IMG/VR virus record: IMGVR_UViG_3300020477_000128 | Span: 1 to 24,439 of that record | Direction: 5' to 3' (one strand) | Source of the DNA: a virus | Length of the DNA stretch: 24,439 bases | Shown: positions 3,981 through 15,054 of the stretch, one piece after another | Numbering within the stretch: position 1 is the stretch's first letter | Layout: the number at the start of each line of letters is the position of its first letter | Made by a program: the position numbers and the translations under genes | Notes under the pieces: model-generated | Databases searched by the model: none | Seen by the model: only the letters and a program-made list of their open reading frames with translations | What the model was told of the DNA's origin: nothing

Positions 3981-3988
3981 AATAAATA
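3981..3988 (+). promoter_or_regulatory. Late promoter
   Basis: AATAAATA lies 16 bp before the start at 4005. The downstream leader (AACTAAAAAGTAAT) is nearly identical to the leader at 15039-15052, so promoter and leader look like one repeated cassette. Confidence 0.65.
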
Positions 3989-4004
3989 ACTAAAAAGTAA
4001 TCAG

Positions 4005-4703: not shown

Positions 4704-5207
4704 ATGTCAACACTTATTGCTGATAAACTTAAATCAAGGAATACTGGGACGGCAGTTTCTGTTACTGATAGCCTGATTATCGTTGGTTACGGTACAGTTA
4801 CACAGGATCTAGCAGTAGAAGGTAACTTAAATGTTACTGGGGATTTAGTATATGATGAAGCAACTGCTGTTAATTTAGATGTAAGTGGTATTGCAACTGT
4901 TGGAACTCTTGGAGTAACTGGTGTTGCTACTGCATATAATCTAGAAGTTATTGGTATTGCAACCGTTGGAACTCTGGGAGTAACCGGTCTTGCCACTGCA
5001 TATAATCTAGAAGTTATTGGTGTAACCACAGTTGGTTCTGGGGTTACTATTAGTGTTGCCGGTGTTGATGCTGTCTCTGGTGTTATAACTGCAACAACTG
5101 GATCTTATAGTGGAACAGTTACTGCAAATGCATTTGAAGGAGATGGTGCCGGACTTACTGGATTACCTGCGGGGTTCACTGAACTTGATGCAGCTTTGTT
5201 TAACTAA
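4704..5207 (+). CDS. Fibre-like virion protein with 22-residue repeats
   Basis: 167 residues. The N-terminus MSTLIADKLKSRNTGTAVS is the fibre anchor type. Residues about 62-105 contain two near-identical 22-residue repeats (GIATVGTLGVTG...YNLEVI), followed by a third, decayed unit (GVTTVGSGVTIS). Such repeats usually form a trimeric beta-helical shaft. The C-terminal FEGDGAGLTGLPAGF is the common phage-fibre GDGSxLTG motif also seen in 15055 and 17679. AGGAG at 4691-4695, inside the previous gene, serves as ribosome site, so it is coupled to the gene at 4005. A shaft segment is a reasonable inference. Confidence 0.7.
   Translation: MSTLIADKLKSRNTGTAVSVTDSLIIVGYGTVTQDLAVEGNLNVTGDLVYDEATAVNLDVSGIATVGTLGVTGVATAYNLEVIGIATVGTLGVTGLATAYNLEVIGVTTVGSGVTISVAGVDAVSGVITATTGSYSGTVTANAFEGDGAGLTGLPAGFTELDAALFN
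4887..5018 (+). repeat. Two tandem 66-bp in-frame repeats
   Basis: Units 4887-4952 and 4953-5018 differ at only a few, mostly third-codon, positions and encode the same 22-residue fibre repeat with one V/L change. A weaker third unit starts at 5019. The period is a whole number of codons, so gain or loss of a unit keeps the frame. Confidence 0.85.
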
Positions 5208-5849: not shown

Positions 5850-6911
5850 ATGGCTAATGTAACTTTTCCTGCTACTACTGATGGTGATGCTATCGTTAAA
5901 CAGTATAGTAGTATTACCATTAATAGTGGTGATACAGTAACCGTAGATAATAAATGTAAAGGTCTTATACTCTATTGTACAGGAAATTGTACTATAAATG
6001 GTACATTATCCATGGATGAAAAAGGTGCCGCAATGAACGCACCTACACCAGGAGGAGCAATATCACCTAATGGTTTAAGATGGGTTTGGTATGCACCTGG
6101 ATCAACAGGAGGACCTCTTAGTCAACCAGATGTACCTTTAGCAGTTTTAGGACCAGCTGCCGCAGCGATGGATAATCCGGCTGCATATAATGAACCTGAA
6201 ATAACTACAGTTCAATCCATAGTTACAGGTGGTACTGGGGGAAATAACGCTAGTGGCAATTCTGGTGGTTGGCCTGCGAGAAGTGAGAGAGATGGTGGTG
6301 ATGGTCCTGGAGAGGGCGCAACTGGTGGTGGTGGCGGTGGTACTGGTTTTGCTGGTGGTGGTACTGGTGGTGCCGGATATGCTTGGTGTGGCGGCGGTGG
6401 CGGCGGCGGTGCAGGTGCTGGCGGTTATGGTATAGCTGGAGAATCTGCTCCCCCTACTAATACTACTGGTGGAGGCAATGGTGGTTCTGGACCTGAAGGG
6501 GGTAGAGTAGGTGGTGGCGGAGGAGCAGGATCTCCGGCGGGAGAAGGCGCACCTGATCCTGATGGAAATGGTCTTGACGGAGGCGGTGCTGGTGGATTAA
6601 TATGTTTATTCGTACAAGGAAATATAGATATAGGTCCTACGGGAGCAATAAAGGCTCGTGGTGGTGAGGGTGGTAATGCTGCTCCTCCGGGTGCAGGTTC
6701 AAATGGTGGCGGTGGTGGTGGAGCCGGCGGTGGGAGAATTATAATCTGTCATGGTGGAACCTATACTAATAATGGAACTGTTAGCGTTGATGGTGGAACA
6801 GGTGGTGGAGGTGGTCCTACTCCTGCTAGTGCTCCTAATCCTAATAGAGCTGGAAATGGTGGTGCTGGAGCGATTACTGTAGTTCCAGTTGGAGTGCAGA
6901 AACCAATTTAG
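5850..6911 (+). CDS. Glycine-rich adhesin-like protein, distinct type
   Basis: 353 residues, with TAGGAGGA at 5835-5842 as ribosome site. Residues 1-60 are a strand-rich, cysteine-containing head (SITINSGDTVTVDNKCKGLI, then LYCTGNCTINGTLSMDEKG) unlike the other glycine-rich proteins. A long Gly-rich body follows, with GGGGGGGAGAGGYG-type runs and a second strand block (AGGLICLFVQGNIDIGPTGA, GGRIIICHGGTYTNNGTVSV). The end, ITVVPVGVQKPI, lacks the usual GSGIVIIRY strand. The product is probably a tip adhesin of a different subfamily. The stop codon overlaps by 4 bp, on opposite strands, with the stop of the minus-strand gene. Confidence 0.75.
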   Translation: MANVTFPATTDGDAIVKQYSSITINSGDTVTVDNKCKGLILYCTGNCTINGTLSMDEKGAAMNAPTPGGAISPNGLRWVWYAPGSTGGPLSQPDVPLAVLGPAAAAMDNPAAYNEPEITTVQSIVTGGTGGNNASGNSGGWPARSERDGGDGPGEGATGGGGGGTGFAGGGTGGAGYAWCGGGGGGGAGAGGYGIAGESAPPTNTTGGGNGGSGPEGGRVGGGGGAGSPAGEGAPDPDGNGLDGGGAGGLICLFVQGNIDIGPTGAIKARGGEGGNAAPPGAGSNGGGGGGAGGGRIIICHGGTYTNNGTVSVDGGTGGGGGPTPASAPNPNRAGNGGAGAITVVPVGVQKPI

Positions 6912-7510
6912 TAACGGGATACTTTAATTTTAAAATTAGATTTTGTCTTTGCATTTAAAGATCCTTCAATAAAGAAGTTGAATGAGATTGAATGTTTAAT
7001 TCCGGATCCTGCCATTGTATAATGTCTTAAATATGAGGGAAAAAATAAAATGGTTTCCTGAGGACAAGATACTTTAAAGGTAATATAATTAAAGTTATTA
7101 TGATCTTTTACTTCGGGATATATTATAAGGGATTGTTCTAGGGGATTCTCAAAGAATATCGGGGATTTATTATTTCCATAAGGATAATATATACCAGAGT
7201 AGAAGGAATTTTTATGAGAATGTGTGGGGATTTCTCCTCCTTTTTCATAGTAATTATACCAACTTGATACCAAGAAAGGTGTAGTATTGGTGGTATGGTT
7301 TAAATGATTATAAAATACTTCTTTAAATTTTGTTTCTATAAATGAAATAAAATTTTTAGCAAATAAAAAATCTTGTATATCCAGTACTTGTTTTAAGTTA
7401 TCGTTGTTATTTTTAATTTTTTGTGTTAAACTTTCTATTAAATTATCTTTTTCGATGAAAGAACAATCTTCATAAAAAATAGGAACCGTAAAGGGAGTGA
7501 AATAATTCAT
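6908..7510 (-). CDS. 2OG-Fe(II) oxygenase-like protein (only minus-strand gene)
   Basis: 200 residues. SSWYNYYEKGGEIPTHSHKN and the following SFYSGIYY, then LFFPSYLRHYTMAGSG and KHSISFNFF, fit the cupin-fold family that includes 2OG-FeII_Oxy_5 (TIGR02466-like). Likely iron ligands are H97 and/or H99 and H163. The second ligand is His rather than the usual Asp, and Lys172 stands where an Arg normally binds 2-oxoglutarate. Activity is therefore plausible but not certain. The start is supported by AAGAGGAT on the minus strand. It is wedged tightly: its stop overlaps the stop of the gene at 5850 and its start overlaps the start of the gene at 7509. A sigma70-like promoter lies within the divergent gene. 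The substrate is unknown. Confidence 0.78.
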   Translation of the reverse strand: MNYFTPFTVPIFYEDCSFIEKDNLIESLTQKIKNNNDNLKQVLDIQDFLFAKNFISFIETKFKEVFYNHLNHTTNTTPFLVSSWYNYYEKGGEIPTHSHKNSFYSGIYYPYGNNKSPIFFENPLEQSLIIYPEVKDHNNFNYITFKVSCPQETILFFPSYLRHYTMAGSGIKHSISFNFFIEGSLNAKTKSNFKIKVSRY

Positions 7511-8030
7511 GTATAATCCTCTTAAAATTCCTGTCTTTAAAAAGCCTATTATAGGACATAAGGAATATAAAAGTCAAATTTTAGAATTAATTGATAAGTA
7601 TTCTGTAGCATATATTAAAAAAAATACTTTAGATATTAGAAGTGACTATGAATTAAGTAGAGATCATCCTCGACCTTATTTGGATTCTATTAGACCTCGT
7701 ATTAAAGATTGTTTAATAGATTTTGCAAAAATCTCTACACATTATAAAGATGTTGAGATAAGATGTTTTTTCTATCAACAATATCAAAAAGAGCAATATC
7801 ATGGATGGCATGTTCATGATTGTCAGTATAGTGGAGTTTATTATCTTGATATGCCTTTAGATACTCCTAAAACCCAATATATTGATCCTTTTACTAATGA
7901 TATATGCGAGTTTGATATAAAAGAGGGAGATGTTCTTGCTTTTCCTAGTTTTTTAGTACATCGAGCACCTCCCAATCAGAGTGATTCAATGAAAACCATT
8001 ATATCTTTTAATTTTAATTTTTGGAACTAA
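7509..8030 (+). CDS. 2OG-Fe(II) oxygenase-like protein
   Basis: 173 residues. The motif YHGWHVHDCQYSGVYYLD at 97-114 followed by GDVLAFPSFLVHRAPPN around 140-156 and KTIISFNFNF at the end matches the same family as the minus-strand neighbour. Candidate iron ligands are H101, H103 (or D104) and H151. Lys162 replaces the expected 2OG-binding Arg. The start at 7509 has GGGAG at 7493-7497 upstream, which lies inside the opposite gene. Overall similarity with the divergent neighbour is low outside the core, so this is an old paralogue or a separate acquisition. No sigma70 or late promoter is obvious ahead of it. The substrate is unknown. Confidence 0.78.
   Translation: MYNPLKIPVFKKPIIGHKEYKSQILELIDKYSVAYIKKNTLDIRSDYELSRDHPRPYLDSIRPRIKDCLIDFAKISTHYKDVEIRCFFYQQYQKEQYHGWHVHDCQYSGVYYLDMPLDTPKTQYIDPFTNDICEFDIKEGDVLAFPSFLVHRAPPNQSDSMKTIISFNFNFWN
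7548..7577 (-). promoter_or_regulatory. Sigma70-like promoter for the minus-strand gene
   Basis: Read on the minus strand: TTGACT (7577-7572), 18-bp spacer, TATAAT (7553-7548). The predicted start site near 7541 would give a leader of about 30 nt containing the ribosome site. It lies wholly inside the coding sequence of the divergent gene. Only one base departs from consensus. Confidence 0.65.
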
Positions 8031-8037
8031 ATAAATA
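8027..8037 (+). promoter_or_regulatory. Late promoter
   Basis: CTAAATA and AATAAATA overlap here, directly on the stop codon of the gene at 7509 and 17 bp before the start at 8055. Confidence 0.6.
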
Positions 8038-8054
8038 TATAAAAAAAGACTAAA

Positions 8055-8270
8055 ATGGCTGATCCTAATGCGGCGGCAGGTGTTAATATTACTACTGACT
8101 CTGCCATGGTAACCACACTGACTGAAATTAAAGGGCATTGTGAAGCGAATCCTAATTTGTCTACTTTACTTGCTCAATTTAGATCTAATCCGGATAATCG
8201 TCATGTGGAATATTATCTTAGAACTATTGGTGCCATAGAGAAGATTCAGCAGATTATTGATGCTTCTTAA
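8055..8270 (+). CDS. Conserved-looking small protein, function unknown
   Basis: 71 residues, mostly helical in appearance: MADPNAAAGVNITTDSAMVT, then TLTEIKGHCEANPNLSTLLAQFRSN and YYLRTIGAIEKIQQIIDAS. It is acidic to neutral, with a single Cys and no membrane segment or enzyme motif. It has its own late promoter, so late expression and perhaps a virion or assembly role are likely. It sits between two oxygenase groups. Its stop codon touches the left copy of the 44-bp direct repeat, which makes it the probable original left neighbour of the fibre gene at 10316 before the oxygenase cassette arrived. I do not recognise the family. Confidence 0.65.
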   Translation: MADPNAAAGVNITTDSAMVTTLTEIKGHCEANPNLSTLLAQFRSNPDNRHVEYYLRTIGAIEKIQQIIDAS

Positions 8271-8313
8271 TCAGTCGATAAATAAAGAATGATAAATAAC
8301 TAGAAAGGTAATT
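8270..8313 (+). repeat. 44-bp perfect direct repeat, left copy
   Basis: Identical over 44 bp to 10264-10307. It begins at the last base of the stop codon of the gene at 8055 and contains two late-promoter octamers (GATAAATA at 8277-8284 and 8291-8298). Its final TT forms the start of the TTGACA box of the adjacent sigma70 promoter. Outside the 44 bp the flanks of the two copies do not match. Confidence 0.95.
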
Positions 8314-8340
8314 GACAATCTAAAAACTCTCCTATATAAT
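8312..8340 (+). promoter_or_regulatory. Consensus sigma70 promoter for the oxygenase cassette
   Basis: TTGACA at 8312-8317, a 17-bp spacer and TATAAT at 8335-8340: both hexamers and the spacing are perfect consensus. The predicted start near 8347 gives a short leader before the ATG at 8364. This implies transcription by unmodified host RNA polymerase, in addition to the late octamers of the repeat just upstream. Confidence 0.85.
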
Positions 8341-8363
8341 ATCACTGAATACATCATAGGTTT

Positions 8364-8984
8364 ATGGCATATCAGAGTATATGGTATTTTACTGACCTAC
8401 CAGATAAGGTCGTAAATTTAATCGAAGAAGATTTAACAGAAAATTTTGATCCACAGATGGCAGACTCCAAGTTACATGGAGATGCATTAAATAAAGAGAA
8501 AAGAAATTCACAGAATGCATGGATACCTACAACTCATTGGGTAGGTGGATTTATTTGGCATTATATACAAAGAGCAAATAGAGAAAATTTTCTTTATGAT
8601 TTGCGATGTATTGATGGTGAAAGTATGCAATATACTCGATATCAAGAAGGTCAATTCTATGGATGGCACAATGATGCAGGATTAGCCACACAATATAAAC
8701 CAGTATCGGTAGGTAATCGTACAGAGGGATTAGGACAAGATTTTGTAAATGAAAATGTAGAGATGGTGAGGAAATTATCTTTTGCCATGCAACTCTCTGA
8801 TCCTGATGACTATGAAGGTGGTAACGTTCAATTGTTGGATGAATCAGGTAATAGTTATATTGTTCCTCGTAAGAAGGGATGTATAGTATTATTTGACTCT
8901 CGTACTCAACATAGAGTTAATAAGGTAACGAAAGGAACCCGTAAGTCTATCGTTGGATGGACTGTCGGCCCTCGTTGGAAATAG
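8364..8984 (+). CDS. 2OG-Fe(II) oxygenase, prolyl-hydroxylase-like
   Basis: 206 residues; the best-preserved oxygenase of the five. YTRYQEGQFYGWHNDAG supplies H102 and D104 (the HxD pair). KLSFAMQLSDPDDYEGGNVQ is the typical beta-core strand with GG. GCIVLFDSRTQHRVNKV supplies the distal H183, and R193 in GTRKSIVGW is placed to bind 2-oxoglutarate. Length and motif order match P4H/PiuC-type Fe2OG dioxygenases, soluble enzymes that hydroxylate proteins or small molecules. It is the first gene of a three-gene cassette with a consensus promoter 24 bp upstream of the start; the ribosome site is weak (AGG at 8358-8360). The substrate cannot be told from sequence. Confidence 0.9.
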   Translation: MAYQSIWYFTDLPDKVVNLIEEDLTENFDPQMADSKLHGDALNKEKRNSQNAWIPTTHWVGGFIWHYIQRANRENFLYDLRCIDGESMQYTRYQEGQFYGWHNDAGLATQYKPVSVGNRTEGLGQDFVNENVEMVRKLSFAMQLSDPDDYEGGNVQLLDESGNSYIVPRKKGCIVLFDSRTQHRVNKVTKGTRKSIVGWTVGPRWK

Positions 8985-8994
8985 GAGGTAAGTC

Positions 8995-9732
8995 ATGGCA
9001 GAATGTATGACAGAACAGCAGATAATGTTTCAGGAGAAGCACAACAGTGGAACTGCATGGACTCGTAATAAACAGTTTGATAAGGATGGTTATCTGGTAG
9101 TAAAAGATTTATGGGATCCAGAAGAACTTTATCATCCTGTTCCAGAATTACGTGGACAGTTAAATTATTGGGATGATAATCCAGAGCATTTTAACCATAC
9201 TCCTGTTGAAAATCAGGTAGAAGGTTCAGTTGCAAGGTATTGGCATCCACAGTATCGTAAAATTCATAGTGGTGTGCGTAAGAAGTTAGAGAAAACATTG
9301 GGAAGAAAACTTTATAATACCTATTACTATGATAGGTTTTATTTTCCTGGTCAACCTTTACATAAACATGCTGATAGAGATGCTTGTGAGATTTCGGTTA
9401 CTATTCACGTTAGCACTAATCTTCCTGATAACTTAAAAGAATGGGAGGTAAAGATTAAAACTCCCGATACCTATACTGATAAAAAGAAAACTGCTGTATT
9501 AGTTCCTGGTGAAGAACGTGCTCTGGTTCTTGATCCTGGTGATGGGATGGTATATAAAGGATGTGAACGTCCTCATTGGAGAGATCCGATGCCTGGTACT
9601 CCATTAGGGAAGAAAAGTAAGAAATTGTTTGGTAAAAAACCCCAACAGGAACAATATTATCATCAAATCTTTTTCCATTATGTTTTACAAGATGGACAAC
9701 GAGCTCATTGTGCATGGGATAGATCAAGATGA
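8995..9732 (+). CDS. Putative 2OG-Fe(II) oxygenase
   Basis: 245 residues. An N-terminal part (FDKDGYLVVKDLWDPEELYH) is typical of the start of PhyH-like or related dioxygenases. The central YYYDRFYFPGQPLHKHADRD and CEISVTIHVS give H125-x-D127 and the following core strand. GDGMVYKGCERPHWRDPMPG gives H194 as the distal ligand, with R196 a possible 2OG contact. FFHYVLQDGQRAHC forms a last strand. The spacing of about 67 residues between HxD and distal His is normal for the superfamily. TAGGAGG at 8982-8988 is a strong ribosome site, 10 bp after the upstream gene. It overlaps the next gene by 4 bp (ATGA). The substrate is unknown. Confidence 0.82.
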   Translation: MAECMTEQQIMFQEKHNSGTAWTRNKQFDKDGYLVVKDLWDPEELYHPVPELRGQLNYWDDNPEHFNHTPVENQVEGSVARYWHPQYRKIHSGVRKKLEKTLGRKLYNTYYYDRFYFPGQPLHKHADRDACEISVTIHVSTNLPDNLKEWEVKIKTPDTYTDKKKTAVLVPGEERALVLDPGDGMVYKGCERPHWRDPMPGTPLGKKSKKLFGKKPQQEQYYHQIFFHYVLQDGQRAHCAWDRSR

Positions 9733-10286
9733 AGGCACCTCTTTTTGAATTTCCTTCTTATCAGTATGAGATAAGTGATTGGGAGTTTAAGAAGAAAGGA
9801 CTACTCAGTAGAATTAATAAGAGTAAGTTTATACGCACTGAACTCCAAACTTTTGAGACTGATAGACAGACATGTGGAAAATCATATGTTAGATATTTTG
9901 AGGATTTTCTAAAACCTGAACTATCTGAGTTTTGTAAGGAAGCAAAAGTTACTTGTTCTATGACTGATGCATGGTCAGTTAAATATCAGAAAGGAGATCA
10001 ACAGACGGTTCATAATCATAGAGGATGGGGATTCTCTGGAATATTATATGTGGAGTATGATCCAAAAGTTCATACTCCAACTTGCTTTGTAGCACCTTGG
10101 CAAGATCCACGAACTGATACAACTTCTCTTGCATATGTTCCTAATGTAAAAGAGGGAACACTTTTTATTGCTCCTTCATGGGCATTACATTTTGTTCATC
10201 CTAATAAGACCAGAAAGCAGAGAACTGTTGTGGTGTTTGATTTATTACCTGAATTGCCAAGTCATCAGTCGATAAATAAAGAATGA
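9729..10286 (+). CDS. 2OG-Fe(II) oxygenase/cupin-like protein
   Basis: 185 residues. AWSVKYQKGDQQTVHNHRGW and GFSGILYVEYD (H95, H97) followed by EGTLFIAPSWALHFVHPNKT (H154, with H157 nearby) and RTVVVFDL (R165) fit the HxH...H variant of the 2OG-Fe(II) oxygenase fold seen at 7509. Here the Arg is kept. It overlaps the upstream gene by 4 bp and is therefore translationally coupled. The last seven residues (HQSINKE) and the stop are encoded within the right copy of the 44-bp repeat, so the C-terminus was set by the recombination junction. The substrate is unknown; a protein or small-molecule hydroxylase is plausible. Confidence 0.8.
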   Translation: MKAPLFEFPSYQYEISDWEFKKKGLLSRINKSKFIRTELQTFETDRQTCGKSYVRYFEDFLKPELSEFCKEAKVTCSMTDAWSVKYQKGDQQTVHNHRGWGFSGILYVEYDPKVHTPTCFVAPWQDPRTDTTSLAYVPNVKEGTLFIAPSWALHFVHPNKTRKQRTVVVFDLLPELPSHQSINKE

Positions 10287-10307
10287 TAAATAACTAGAAA
10301 GGTAATT
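10264..10307 (+). repeat. 44-bp perfect direct repeat, right copy
   Basis: Identical to 8270-8313. It overlaps the 3' end of the gene at 9729 and ends nine bases before the start codon at 10316. Together with the left copy it bounds a 1,994-bp unit (8270-10263). Recombination between copies would remove exactly this unit and leave the gene at 8055 and the late promoter of 10316 intact. Confidence 0.95.
10271..10292 (+). promoter_or_regulatory. Tandem late promoters
   Basis: Two GATAAATA octamers, 10271-10278 and 10285-10292, lie inside the right repeat copy. The second is 23 bp before the start at 10316. Both also lie in or next to the end of the upstream oxygenase gene. Confidence 0.6.
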
Positions 10308-10315
10308 CTAGAATA

Positions 10316-11290
10316 ATGTCAAGAGTTCGCGCAGACAAACTTGTCGATAGAGCAGCGACAGGTGCTCCGAGTTTAACATATGGTGCAGAAGTACCTGTTG
10401 GTTATGGAATAACAGGTGCAGGTGGAATCAATATTAGTGGGGTTGCCACTGCTGGTAGTTTTGTAGGGAATGTCACTGGAACTGCAACTGGATTAACGGG
10501 TACTCCCGATGTTGATCTAGGAAATATATCTGCAGCTGCTGGTGATCTTACTATTAGAAATATAACTGGTGTTGGTGGTACTCTGACTGCCACCACAGAA
10601 TCTTCTTCTACTACTTCTGGTGCATTGGTAATATCCGGTGGTGTAGGGATAGCAAAGAGTCTTAATGTAGGCGGAAATGTAACAGTTGGTGGAACTCTTA
10701 CTTATGAAGATGTAACTAATCAAGATGTTCTAGGAATTGCAACTTATAGACAATCTTTATATGTAGGTAGTACCGAAGGATCGGGTGCTGGTGCTGGTAT
10801 TAGTATGCATAATACTGGTAATGCTATATTTGCTGGTATTGGTACTATTAATACATTACATACTGGGGTTGCGGTAACTGGTCCTGCGCGAGGACTATAT
10901 GCCGAAGGAATTCTAGTAGAATCATTTAGTTCAGTTGCTACTGCATGGAACAGTGATGGTGATCTTGATATAACTGGTGGTAATGTTATATTTAATTCAG
11001 CAAACTTAGGGGGAACAACTAATACTTTAAATATTATATCTACTACTGGTATTAACACTGATATGGCAGTAGGACAGATGTTAACTGTTACTGGAATCAC
11101 ATCAGTAAATAGCACTAGTTCTTATGTAAACGCATTGAAGATTGATGGAGTAACTACTCCTGTATGGTGGAATGGAGGTAGTGCTCCGAGTGATGGGGGA
11201 GGTAGTGGATTAGATATGTATAGTTTTAATATTGTTAAGACTGGGAATGCCACTTATCATGTAGTTGGTAATCAGACTAAGACTTCGTAA
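10316..11290 (+). CDS. Tail-fibre-like protein pairing with glycine-rich tip
   Basis: 324 residues. Residues 1-35 are the fibre anchor MSRVRADKLVDRAATGAPSL followed by YGAEVPVGYGITGAG. Residues about 102-138 are the block GALVISGGVGIAKSLNVGGN then VTVGGTLTYEDVTNQD, shared with 12306, 15055 (partly) and 18257. Next is a GSTEGSGAG...NTGNAIFAGIG module, then a C-terminal domain (VTGITSVNSTSSYVNALKID, WWNGGSAPSDGGGSGLDMYS, FNIVKTGNATYHVVGNQTKTS) shared with 12306 and, more distantly, 18257. The glycine-rich gene at 11303 follows immediately. The order resembles T4-type fibre gp37 followed by adhesin gp38; I infer that the C-terminal domain docks the tip protein. Confidence 0.78.
   Translation: MSRVRADKLVDRAATGAPSLTYGAEVPVGYGITGAGGINISGVATAGSFVGNVTGTATGLTGTPDVDLGNISAAAGDLTIRNITGVGGTLTATTESSSTTSGALVISGGVGIAKSLNVGGNVTVGGTLTYEDVTNQDVLGIATYRQSLYVGSTEGSGAGAGISMHNTGNAIFAGIGTINTLHTGVAVTGPARGLYAEGILVESFSSVATAWNSDGDLDITGGNVIFNSANLGGTTNTLNIISTTGINTDMAVGQMLTVTGITSVNSTSSYVNALKIDGVTTPVWWNGGSAPSDGGGSGLDMYSFNIVKTGNATYHVVGNQTKTS
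10621..10737 (+). repeat. Shared fibre block, copy in gene 10316
   Basis: This stretch is strongly similar in DNA to 12932-13045 and 18373-18489, and its last part also to 15160-15225. Shared DNA includes ATAGCAAAGAGTCTTAATGT. It encodes the same ALVISGGVGIAKSLN...TLTYEDVTN segment and could serve as a recombination seam. Confidence 0.8.
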
Positions 11291-11302
11291 GGGGGTTAAG
11301 TG

Positions 11303-12271
11303 ATGCTGAACAATTCTTGGTTTAAAAAAGAAAAACCCTTTTTAGGACTCACTGGGATGGGTGGGGGTGTCGGTCCAATGGGTGCAGGAATTCCCGGAAC
11401 CTTTAGTGCTAGTGGGGGGGATATTGATGCTTCTCCTGATCCTAATGGTTATACTTATCATGTTTTCTTTGGTGGGCCTGGTACAACTAATTTTACCACT
11501 GTTGGGGGTCCTCCAACTGGAACAAATGTAGAATTTTTCGTTGTTGCTGGTGGTGGTGATGGTGGAGTTTGTGGTGGTGGTGGTGGAGGTGGAGGTGGTA
11601 TTTTACACCATCCAGGAATTTCTATACCGAGCGATCCTATCAGTTTTACTGTTGATGCGGCAGATGATACAGGTACAACTCCTTCTGGAAGTCCTTGTGG
11701 AAAAAGATCAAATGGAAATAATAGTACTGTAGATTGGGGCGGTAATTGGACTATCGTTACAAATGGTGGCGGTGCTGGTGGTGGTGCTGATAGTCAGTCA
11801 GGAAGTGCTGGTGGATCAGGTGGAGGAAACTCTTATCCAGGTGGACCTGATCCAACTGGACCAACTGCAACCCAACCAACACAGGGTCAACCTGGCCTTC
11901 CCCCAGGATATAATCAATACGGTAATAGGGGAGGTTGCAATCCTGGCCCTGCTAATGGTGGAGGTGGATCAGGTGGTCAGGGACCAAGTGGAACTCCACA
12001 AGGTGGAGGTCCAGCTCAACCCTGGCCTGGATTTGCTGGCCCGTTACCTGTTTTTGCTCCAATGCCTACAGGTTGGAAGAATGCGACTGGACCAACTGGT
12101 AAGTATGCTGGTGGAGGATGTGGATCACCTGGTCCCGCACCAGCAGAAGGTGGAGGTGGTGCAGGACCGAGTGGAGCTGCCACGGATTATACTGGTGGTG
12201 GTGGATGTGGAGGTGATACTGCTACTCGTGGTGCCAAGGGTATTGTTATTATCAGATATTTAACTCCTTAA
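11303..12271 (+). CDS. Glycine-rich adhesin-like protein, MLNNSW-type docking
   Basis: 322 residues. The ATG at 11303 is preferred over the GTG one codon upstream because MLNNSWFKKEKPFLGL aligns with the starts at 13930 and 19133 and GGGGG lies about 7 bp before it. The head is followed by FSASGGDIDASPDPNGYTYH and a hydrophobic strand (NVEFFVVAGGG). A Gly/Pro/Asn-rich body follows, with ILHHPGISI and GPTGKYAGGG segments shared with 13930 and the first gene of the window. The end, KGIVIIRYLTP, is the standard closing strand. It lies 12 bp after the fibre gene without its own promoter, so the two are probably co-transcribed. Receptor-binding tip is inferred. Confidence 0.78.
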   Translation: MLNNSWFKKEKPFLGLTGMGGGVGPMGAGIPGTFSASGGDIDASPDPNGYTYHVFFGGPGTTNFTTVGGPPTGTNVEFFVVAGGGDGGVCGGGGGGGGGILHHPGISIPSDPISFTVDAADDTGTTPSGSPCGKRSNGNNSTVDWGGNWTIVTNGGGAGGGADSQSGSAGGSGGGNSYPGGPDPTGPTATQPTQGQPGLPPGYNQYGNRGGCNPGPANGGGGSGGQGPSGTPQGGGPAQPWPGFAGPLPVFAPMPTGWKNATGPTGKYAGGGCGSPGPAPAEGGGGAGPSGAATDYTGGGGCGGDTATRGAKGIVIIRYLTP

Positions 12272-15030: not shown

Positions 15031-15038
15031 GATAAATA
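15031..15038 (+). promoter_or_regulatory. Late promoter
   Basis: GATAAATA lies 16 bp before the start at 15055; promoter plus leader is almost identical to that at 3981-4000. Confidence 0.65.
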
Positions 15039-15054
15039 ACTAAAAAGTAATAAC

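Follow-up and report, generated by a model that had tools for sequence, protein, structure and literature searches.

A 44-bp repeat around a cyanophage oxygenase operon as a probable one-off duplication of the operon's right end

Introduction

When three oxygenase genes in the tail-fibre region of a cyanophage lie between two perfect copies of a promoter-bearing repeat, are those copies the means by which the genes move, or a by-product of something else? The window in which this arrangement occurs, by which we mean the whole 24,439-bp stretch of DNA analysed here, is an entire metagenomic virus record (IMG/VR, IMGVR_UViG_3300020477_000128). Judged by its gene content it is a T4-like cyanophage fragment from the tail-fibre region, and among annotated phages Synechococcus phages Bellamy and S-SM2 (Kyanoviridae) are closest to it. 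The original prediction read the arrangement as a new kind of mobile cassette, one that moves by promoter homology and whose promoter was duplicated on entry. Overall, we believe that a standard oxygenase operon has, in one phage, had a 44-bp piece carrying the end of its last gene and a late promoter copied to its left edge, and that the repeat is the scar of that duplication; we put the probability of this reading at roughly 70%.

Results

An exact repeat search places the two copies of ATCAGTCGATAAATAAAGAATGATAAATAACTAGAAAGGTAATT at 8270-8313 and 10264-10307, both on the plus strand and 1,994 bp apart from start to start, in agreement with the original prediction. No other exact direct repeat in the window comes near this length: the second longest, between fibre paralogues, has 27 bp, and 44 bp stands so far above that background that we reject a chance origin. 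Outside the copies the flanks agree at chance level (22/100 on the left, 33/100 on the right), and the exact 44-bp repeat was not found on other IMG/VR contigs. Each copy contains the late octamer GATAAATA twice, at 8277-8284 and 8291-8298 on the left and at 10271-10278 and 10285-10292 on the right, all on the plus strand. These conform to NATAAATA, the octamer upstream of late genes that serves as the late promoter motif of cyanomyoviruses (PMC2984593), and elsewhere in the window GATAAATA stands ahead of several fibre-region genes as well. The left neighbour, gene S (8055-8270, plus strand), is a 71-aa open reading frame whose TAA stop overlaps the start of the left copy by one base; it has no homologue in IMG/VR, phages, PHROGs or Pfam. 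The right copy takes in the end of gene C, with its first octamer inside that gene, and drives the fibre-like gene F (10316-11290, plus strand). Elsewhere in the window a 20-bp exact repeat, ATAAATAACTAAAAAGTAAT, stands ahead of two different fibre-region genes (3982-4001 and 15032-15051), which suggests an extended late-promoter/leader consensus in the fibre region.

The description of the enclosed genes as three oxygenases holds, for two of them by Pfam match and for the third by predicted fold. Gene A (8364-8984, plus strand; PF13640, phrog_61, PKHD/PiuC-like) and gene C (9729-10286, plus strand; PF13759, phrog_81) match 2OG-Fe(II) oxygenase families above the Pfam cutoffs. Gene B (8995-9732, plus strand; phrog_2954) belongs to a group usually annotated as ferrochelatase. 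Its profile search against solved structures returned only a weak and irrelevant match to OB-fold proteins, and the assignment therefore rests on fold comparison. The AlphaFold model of gene B (pLDDT 89.5, built on a 50-sequence alignment) is confident and predicts an oxygenase fold of the double-stranded beta-helix type; its top Foldseek matches are prolyl-4-hydroxylase, AlkB and HalD, at TM-scores of only 0.4-0.6, and no ferrochelatase is among the 50 top structure matches shown. Residues H125xD127 and H194 are conserved in the same alignment. Gene B is thus probably an oxygenase of the superfamily to which genes A and C belong, and the ferrochelatase label that it shares with many phage relatives is probably a propagated error.

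Two further oxygenase genes, missed by the original prediction, lie directly upstream of gene S at 6908-7510 (minus strand) and 7509-8030 (plus strand). Both belong to the gene C family (phrog_81); they are divergent, and their start codons overlap. The minus-strand gene runs antisense inside the late fibre region and is preceded by an 11/12 sigma-70 match at 7577-7548, within its neighbour's coding sequence.

We assembled 101 distinct upstream regions of the A-B-C cassette, from IMG/VR and from phage genomes that include Bellamy and S-SM2; the loci were gathered by pattern-seeded scans, so that the sample is biased to closer sequences. Gene B sits beside gene A in all 101, and A-B-C is a widespread oxygenase operon of marine cyanophages embedded in the late tail-fibre region. 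Just before gene A, overlooked by the original prediction, the window carries a perfect (12/12) host-type, early sigma-70 promoter, TTGACA-N17-TATAAT, at 8312-8340 on the plus strand, which falls within the TTGACA-N16-18-TATAAT form of cyanophage early promoters. The promoter and the left 44-bp copy overlap by two bases, which close the copy and open the -35 box. The promoter lies 53 nt ahead of gene A in the window and at about -53 in most relatives, and a match of at least 11/12 occurs in this position in 77 of the 101 upstream regions, compared with 6/636 upstream of other open reading frames in a control drawn from a smaller, first set. In an alignment of 53 upstream regions, conservation per column stays at background level until the -35 box, where it rises sharply, and a leader element just 3' of the -10 box, TGAATACATCAT (8346-8357, plus strand), is conserved too. 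The cassette carries its own early promoter, and as a rule this is the sole promoter ahead of the operon.

What lies beyond that promoter differs from phage to phage. The left neighbours of the cassette are very diverse, falling into 36 families (clusters) among 63 loci, so different phages place different genes at the operon's left edge, and the neighbour's stop codon most often lies 48-57 nt before gene A. The onset of conservation at the -35 box, the diversity of left neighbours and this regular spacing together argue for a sharp left edge at the early promoter. To this extent the mobile-cassette idea stands, since the genes are shuffled as a unit; the part of it that makes the repeat their means of moving does not, as we set out below. 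Several phages have also gained genes within the operon at fixed internal points. Extra sequence occurs at the A-B junction in four loci (L010, L011, L025, L027) and at the B-C junction in six (L002, L029, L032, L044, L081, L083), and in S-SM2 the addition at the B-C junction is an extra oxygenase.

The two copies differ in standing. As originally predicted, the right copy encodes the last residues of gene C, reading HQSINKE and then the stop codon. Among 32 distinct gene C ends the HQ motif is near-universal and is followed by S or A, the C-terminus often taking the form HQ[S/A]IN, and of 53 distinct gene C 3' regions, 32 have a late octamer that runs into the coding sequence. Aligned at the C-F junction of relatives, the 44-mer reaches a top score of 35, and at least 8 relatives exceed 21; aligned upstream of gene A in the 100 other cassettes, its best score is 16. 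A homologous block is found at the end of gene C in L006, L079, L084, L099, L101, L102 and others, with up to 32 bases exactly shared, and it is present in relatives that lack any left copy. Among the 97 loci whose downstream sequence is available, the window's flanking exact repeat has 44 bp and that of every other cassette 8-12 bp. Because the gene C end is conserved on the right, nothing equivalent precedes gene A in the 100 other cassettes, and the flanking repeat occurs only in the window, we take the right copy to be the native gene C 3' end together with gene F's late promoter, and the left copy, private to the window, to be its displaced derivative, a gene C stub with a late promoter attached. 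The spacing agrees: the gap from S to A is 93 nt, and excising the 44-bp left copy brings it to 49 nt, restoring the usual distance. In a different branch of relatives the end of gene C could form a hairpin followed by a T-run (L002, 8570-8610; L083, about 4930-4975; L085, about 2045-2085; for example GACCACC...GTGGTC TTTTTT), an apparent terminator within the last codons of gene C and before the next late promoter.

That the left copy is unique among the 101 upstream regions is also what an assembly or amplification artefact would produce, a chimeric read or graph error having joined two molecules at the left junction of a genome that is truly single-copy. The window is a single metagenomic record, and with gene S lacking homologues the linkage of S to A is seen in this record alone. 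Against this, the promoter-to-A junction is novel sequence, for which a graph error is insufficient and a physical chimera would be needed, and the structure is tidy, with an S-to-A spacing that is otherwise normal. We consider an artefact quite improbable.

The standing of the two copies bears directly on insertion. One could suppose an earlier genome in which S, a promoter block and F followed one another, and into which the cassette recombined alongside the block, bringing its own gene C end and promoter as the right copy, in a manner reversible by recombination between the copies. The geometry of the repeat fits such an event, as does the occurrence of the cassette next to many left neighbours, and in relatives the right copy does travel with gene C. 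The left copy, however, holds the last codons of gene C, so that the supposedly empty site would already have been the scar of a lost cassette, and the copies are identical even where every relative differs, which would require nearly identical parents. These two demands make a promoter duplicated on entry unlikely, and as an insertion design it also runs against the presence of a native right copy in relatives without a left one. Insertion by duplicating a promoter should moreover have left further examples. In 83 loci (844 kb) no pair of late octamers shares at least 20 bp, in a search that left out pairs differing in their first base; an empty-site form was not found either, with a search query that was limited, gene S having no homologue. 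Nor do the relatives all carry both copies, the outcome named beforehand as fatal to the cassette proposal; none of them has both. We therefore regard insertion beside an existing promoter block as unlikely, and the claim of a new mobile element moving by promoter homology is not supported, since among 97 loci the flanking repeat occurs in the window alone. That restriction, together with the lack of any other late-octamer pair sharing at least 20 bp, argues against the repeat as the cassette's means of moving: a self-excising or self-inserting unit should show an empty site or repeated promoter duplications, and 97 cassettes and 83 loci yielded no second duplication.

Established kinds of mobile element fit no better. 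A transposon or insertion sequence is rejected because the cassette genes are oxygenases only and the right "repeat" is native gene C coding sequence, unpartnered in relatives. A homing-endonuclease cassette is rejected because no endonuclease is present among the open reading frames scanned from 5850 to 12271; PHROG matches to endonuclease V (E 0.0003-0.0009) are weak, and the genes they hit are clearly 2OG oxygenases.

Discussion

The duplication we favour would have been most likely recent and local. In outline, the 44-bp piece of the C-F junction would have been copied directly ahead of the operon's -35 box, probably when recombination-dependent replication switched template, or recombined, at the short match AATT/TT. 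AATT forms the end of the left copy and its last TT opens the -35 box, while the right copy continues differently. Such a match suits template switching or illegitimate joining in replication of this type, though a microhomology of 2-5 bases is weak evidence. At the same time, two close parents, one with S, promoter and F and the other bearing the cassette, could yield the same structure without any duplication within a genome, and this counts against our reading.

If duplication is the right account, the operon's early promoter would now have late promoters in tandem ahead of it. The late octamers in the left copy are intact, in sense orientation, and 73 and 87 nt before gene A, and the pairing of an early with a late promoter ahead of a single gene has been proposed as "middle" control in cyanomyoviruses (PMC2984593). 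Both points are consistent with selected promoter capture, in which the duplication was retained as an early-only operon became early plus late, an extension that is compatible with the duplication itself. A late octamer lies within 110 nt of gene A in only 2 of the 100 other upstream regions, however, which gives no indication of late expression being generally favoured, and read-through from a late promoter at 8030 could already reach gene A. We find selection for late expression doubtful, and the left copy might be neutral. By sequence arithmetic, and as originally predicted, recombination between the two copies would delete exactly the cassette, 1,994 bp, and leave gene S (8055) and the fibre gene (10316) with one promoter block. 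The copies could thus serve as a substrate for clean loss of the operon, in our view an incidental one.

The operon sequence itself is already known from Bellamy and S-SM2. Like the window, both have the genes among tail-fibre genes and in the order A-B-(extra)-C, and in both an identical, perfect early promoter lies 53 nt ahead of gene A; unlike the window, they lack the left 44-bp copy (their longest flanking repeat is 9 bp) and have other left neighbours, and S-SM2 has its additional oxygenase between B and C. In a limited search of the literature we found no description of the operon's promoter-defined edges. A partial parallel is the PeSL (promoter early stem-loop) known from T4-type phages (Arbiol 2010 and Comeau 2014, cited in PMC4503421), where a shuffled gene module is likewise edged by a promoter element. 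The operon in the window has an early promoter as its left boundary, and its right boundary is a late promoter that lies within the last gene. A PeSL cassette pairs an early promoter with a stem-loop terminator between genes, and we do not class the operon as one: the early promoter is present, but neither the stretch from 8055 to 8364 nor that at 10286-10316 contains a terminator-like hairpin, and such a hairpin occurs in just 5 of the 101 cassette upstream regions.

Two other cyanophage systems offer partial likenesses. The putative mobile cassette zwf-gnd-petE-PTOX (PMC3037559) also comprises metabolic genes that move en bloc, but it lies near an endonuclease, whereas the A-B-C operon contains none. 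In S-PM2, a spontaneous 9.5-kb deletion illustrates how cleanly and quickly accessory blocks can be lost from cyanophage populations, although the block lost is a different region (PMC4503421); we found no mention in PMC4503421 of direct repeats at that deletion, and a literature search for T4 deletions between repeats found nothing.

A weaker form of the mobile reading may survive, in which exchanges prefer the promoter-defined left edge of the operon and often its built-in late promoter on the right. In its fuller form, A-B-C would be a promoter-bounded exchange unit, with the early -35 box as its left edge and the late promoter in the gene C stop as its right, which drops between fibre genes and of which the 44-bp duplication is a by-product. 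We advance this tentatively, as possible rather than probable. If it is true, an operon inserted ahead of a new neighbour would supply that gene's late promoter.

What replaces the exotic mobile cassette is a reading that can be tested, that of an early-promoter operon set amid the late fibre genes of many cyanophages. The gene B result bears on its relatives as well, whose ferrochelatase label, on the evidence of the predicted fold, is probably wrong. And in one lineage a late promoter would have been duplicated before the operon, which makes the expression timing of these abundant oxygenases open to test.
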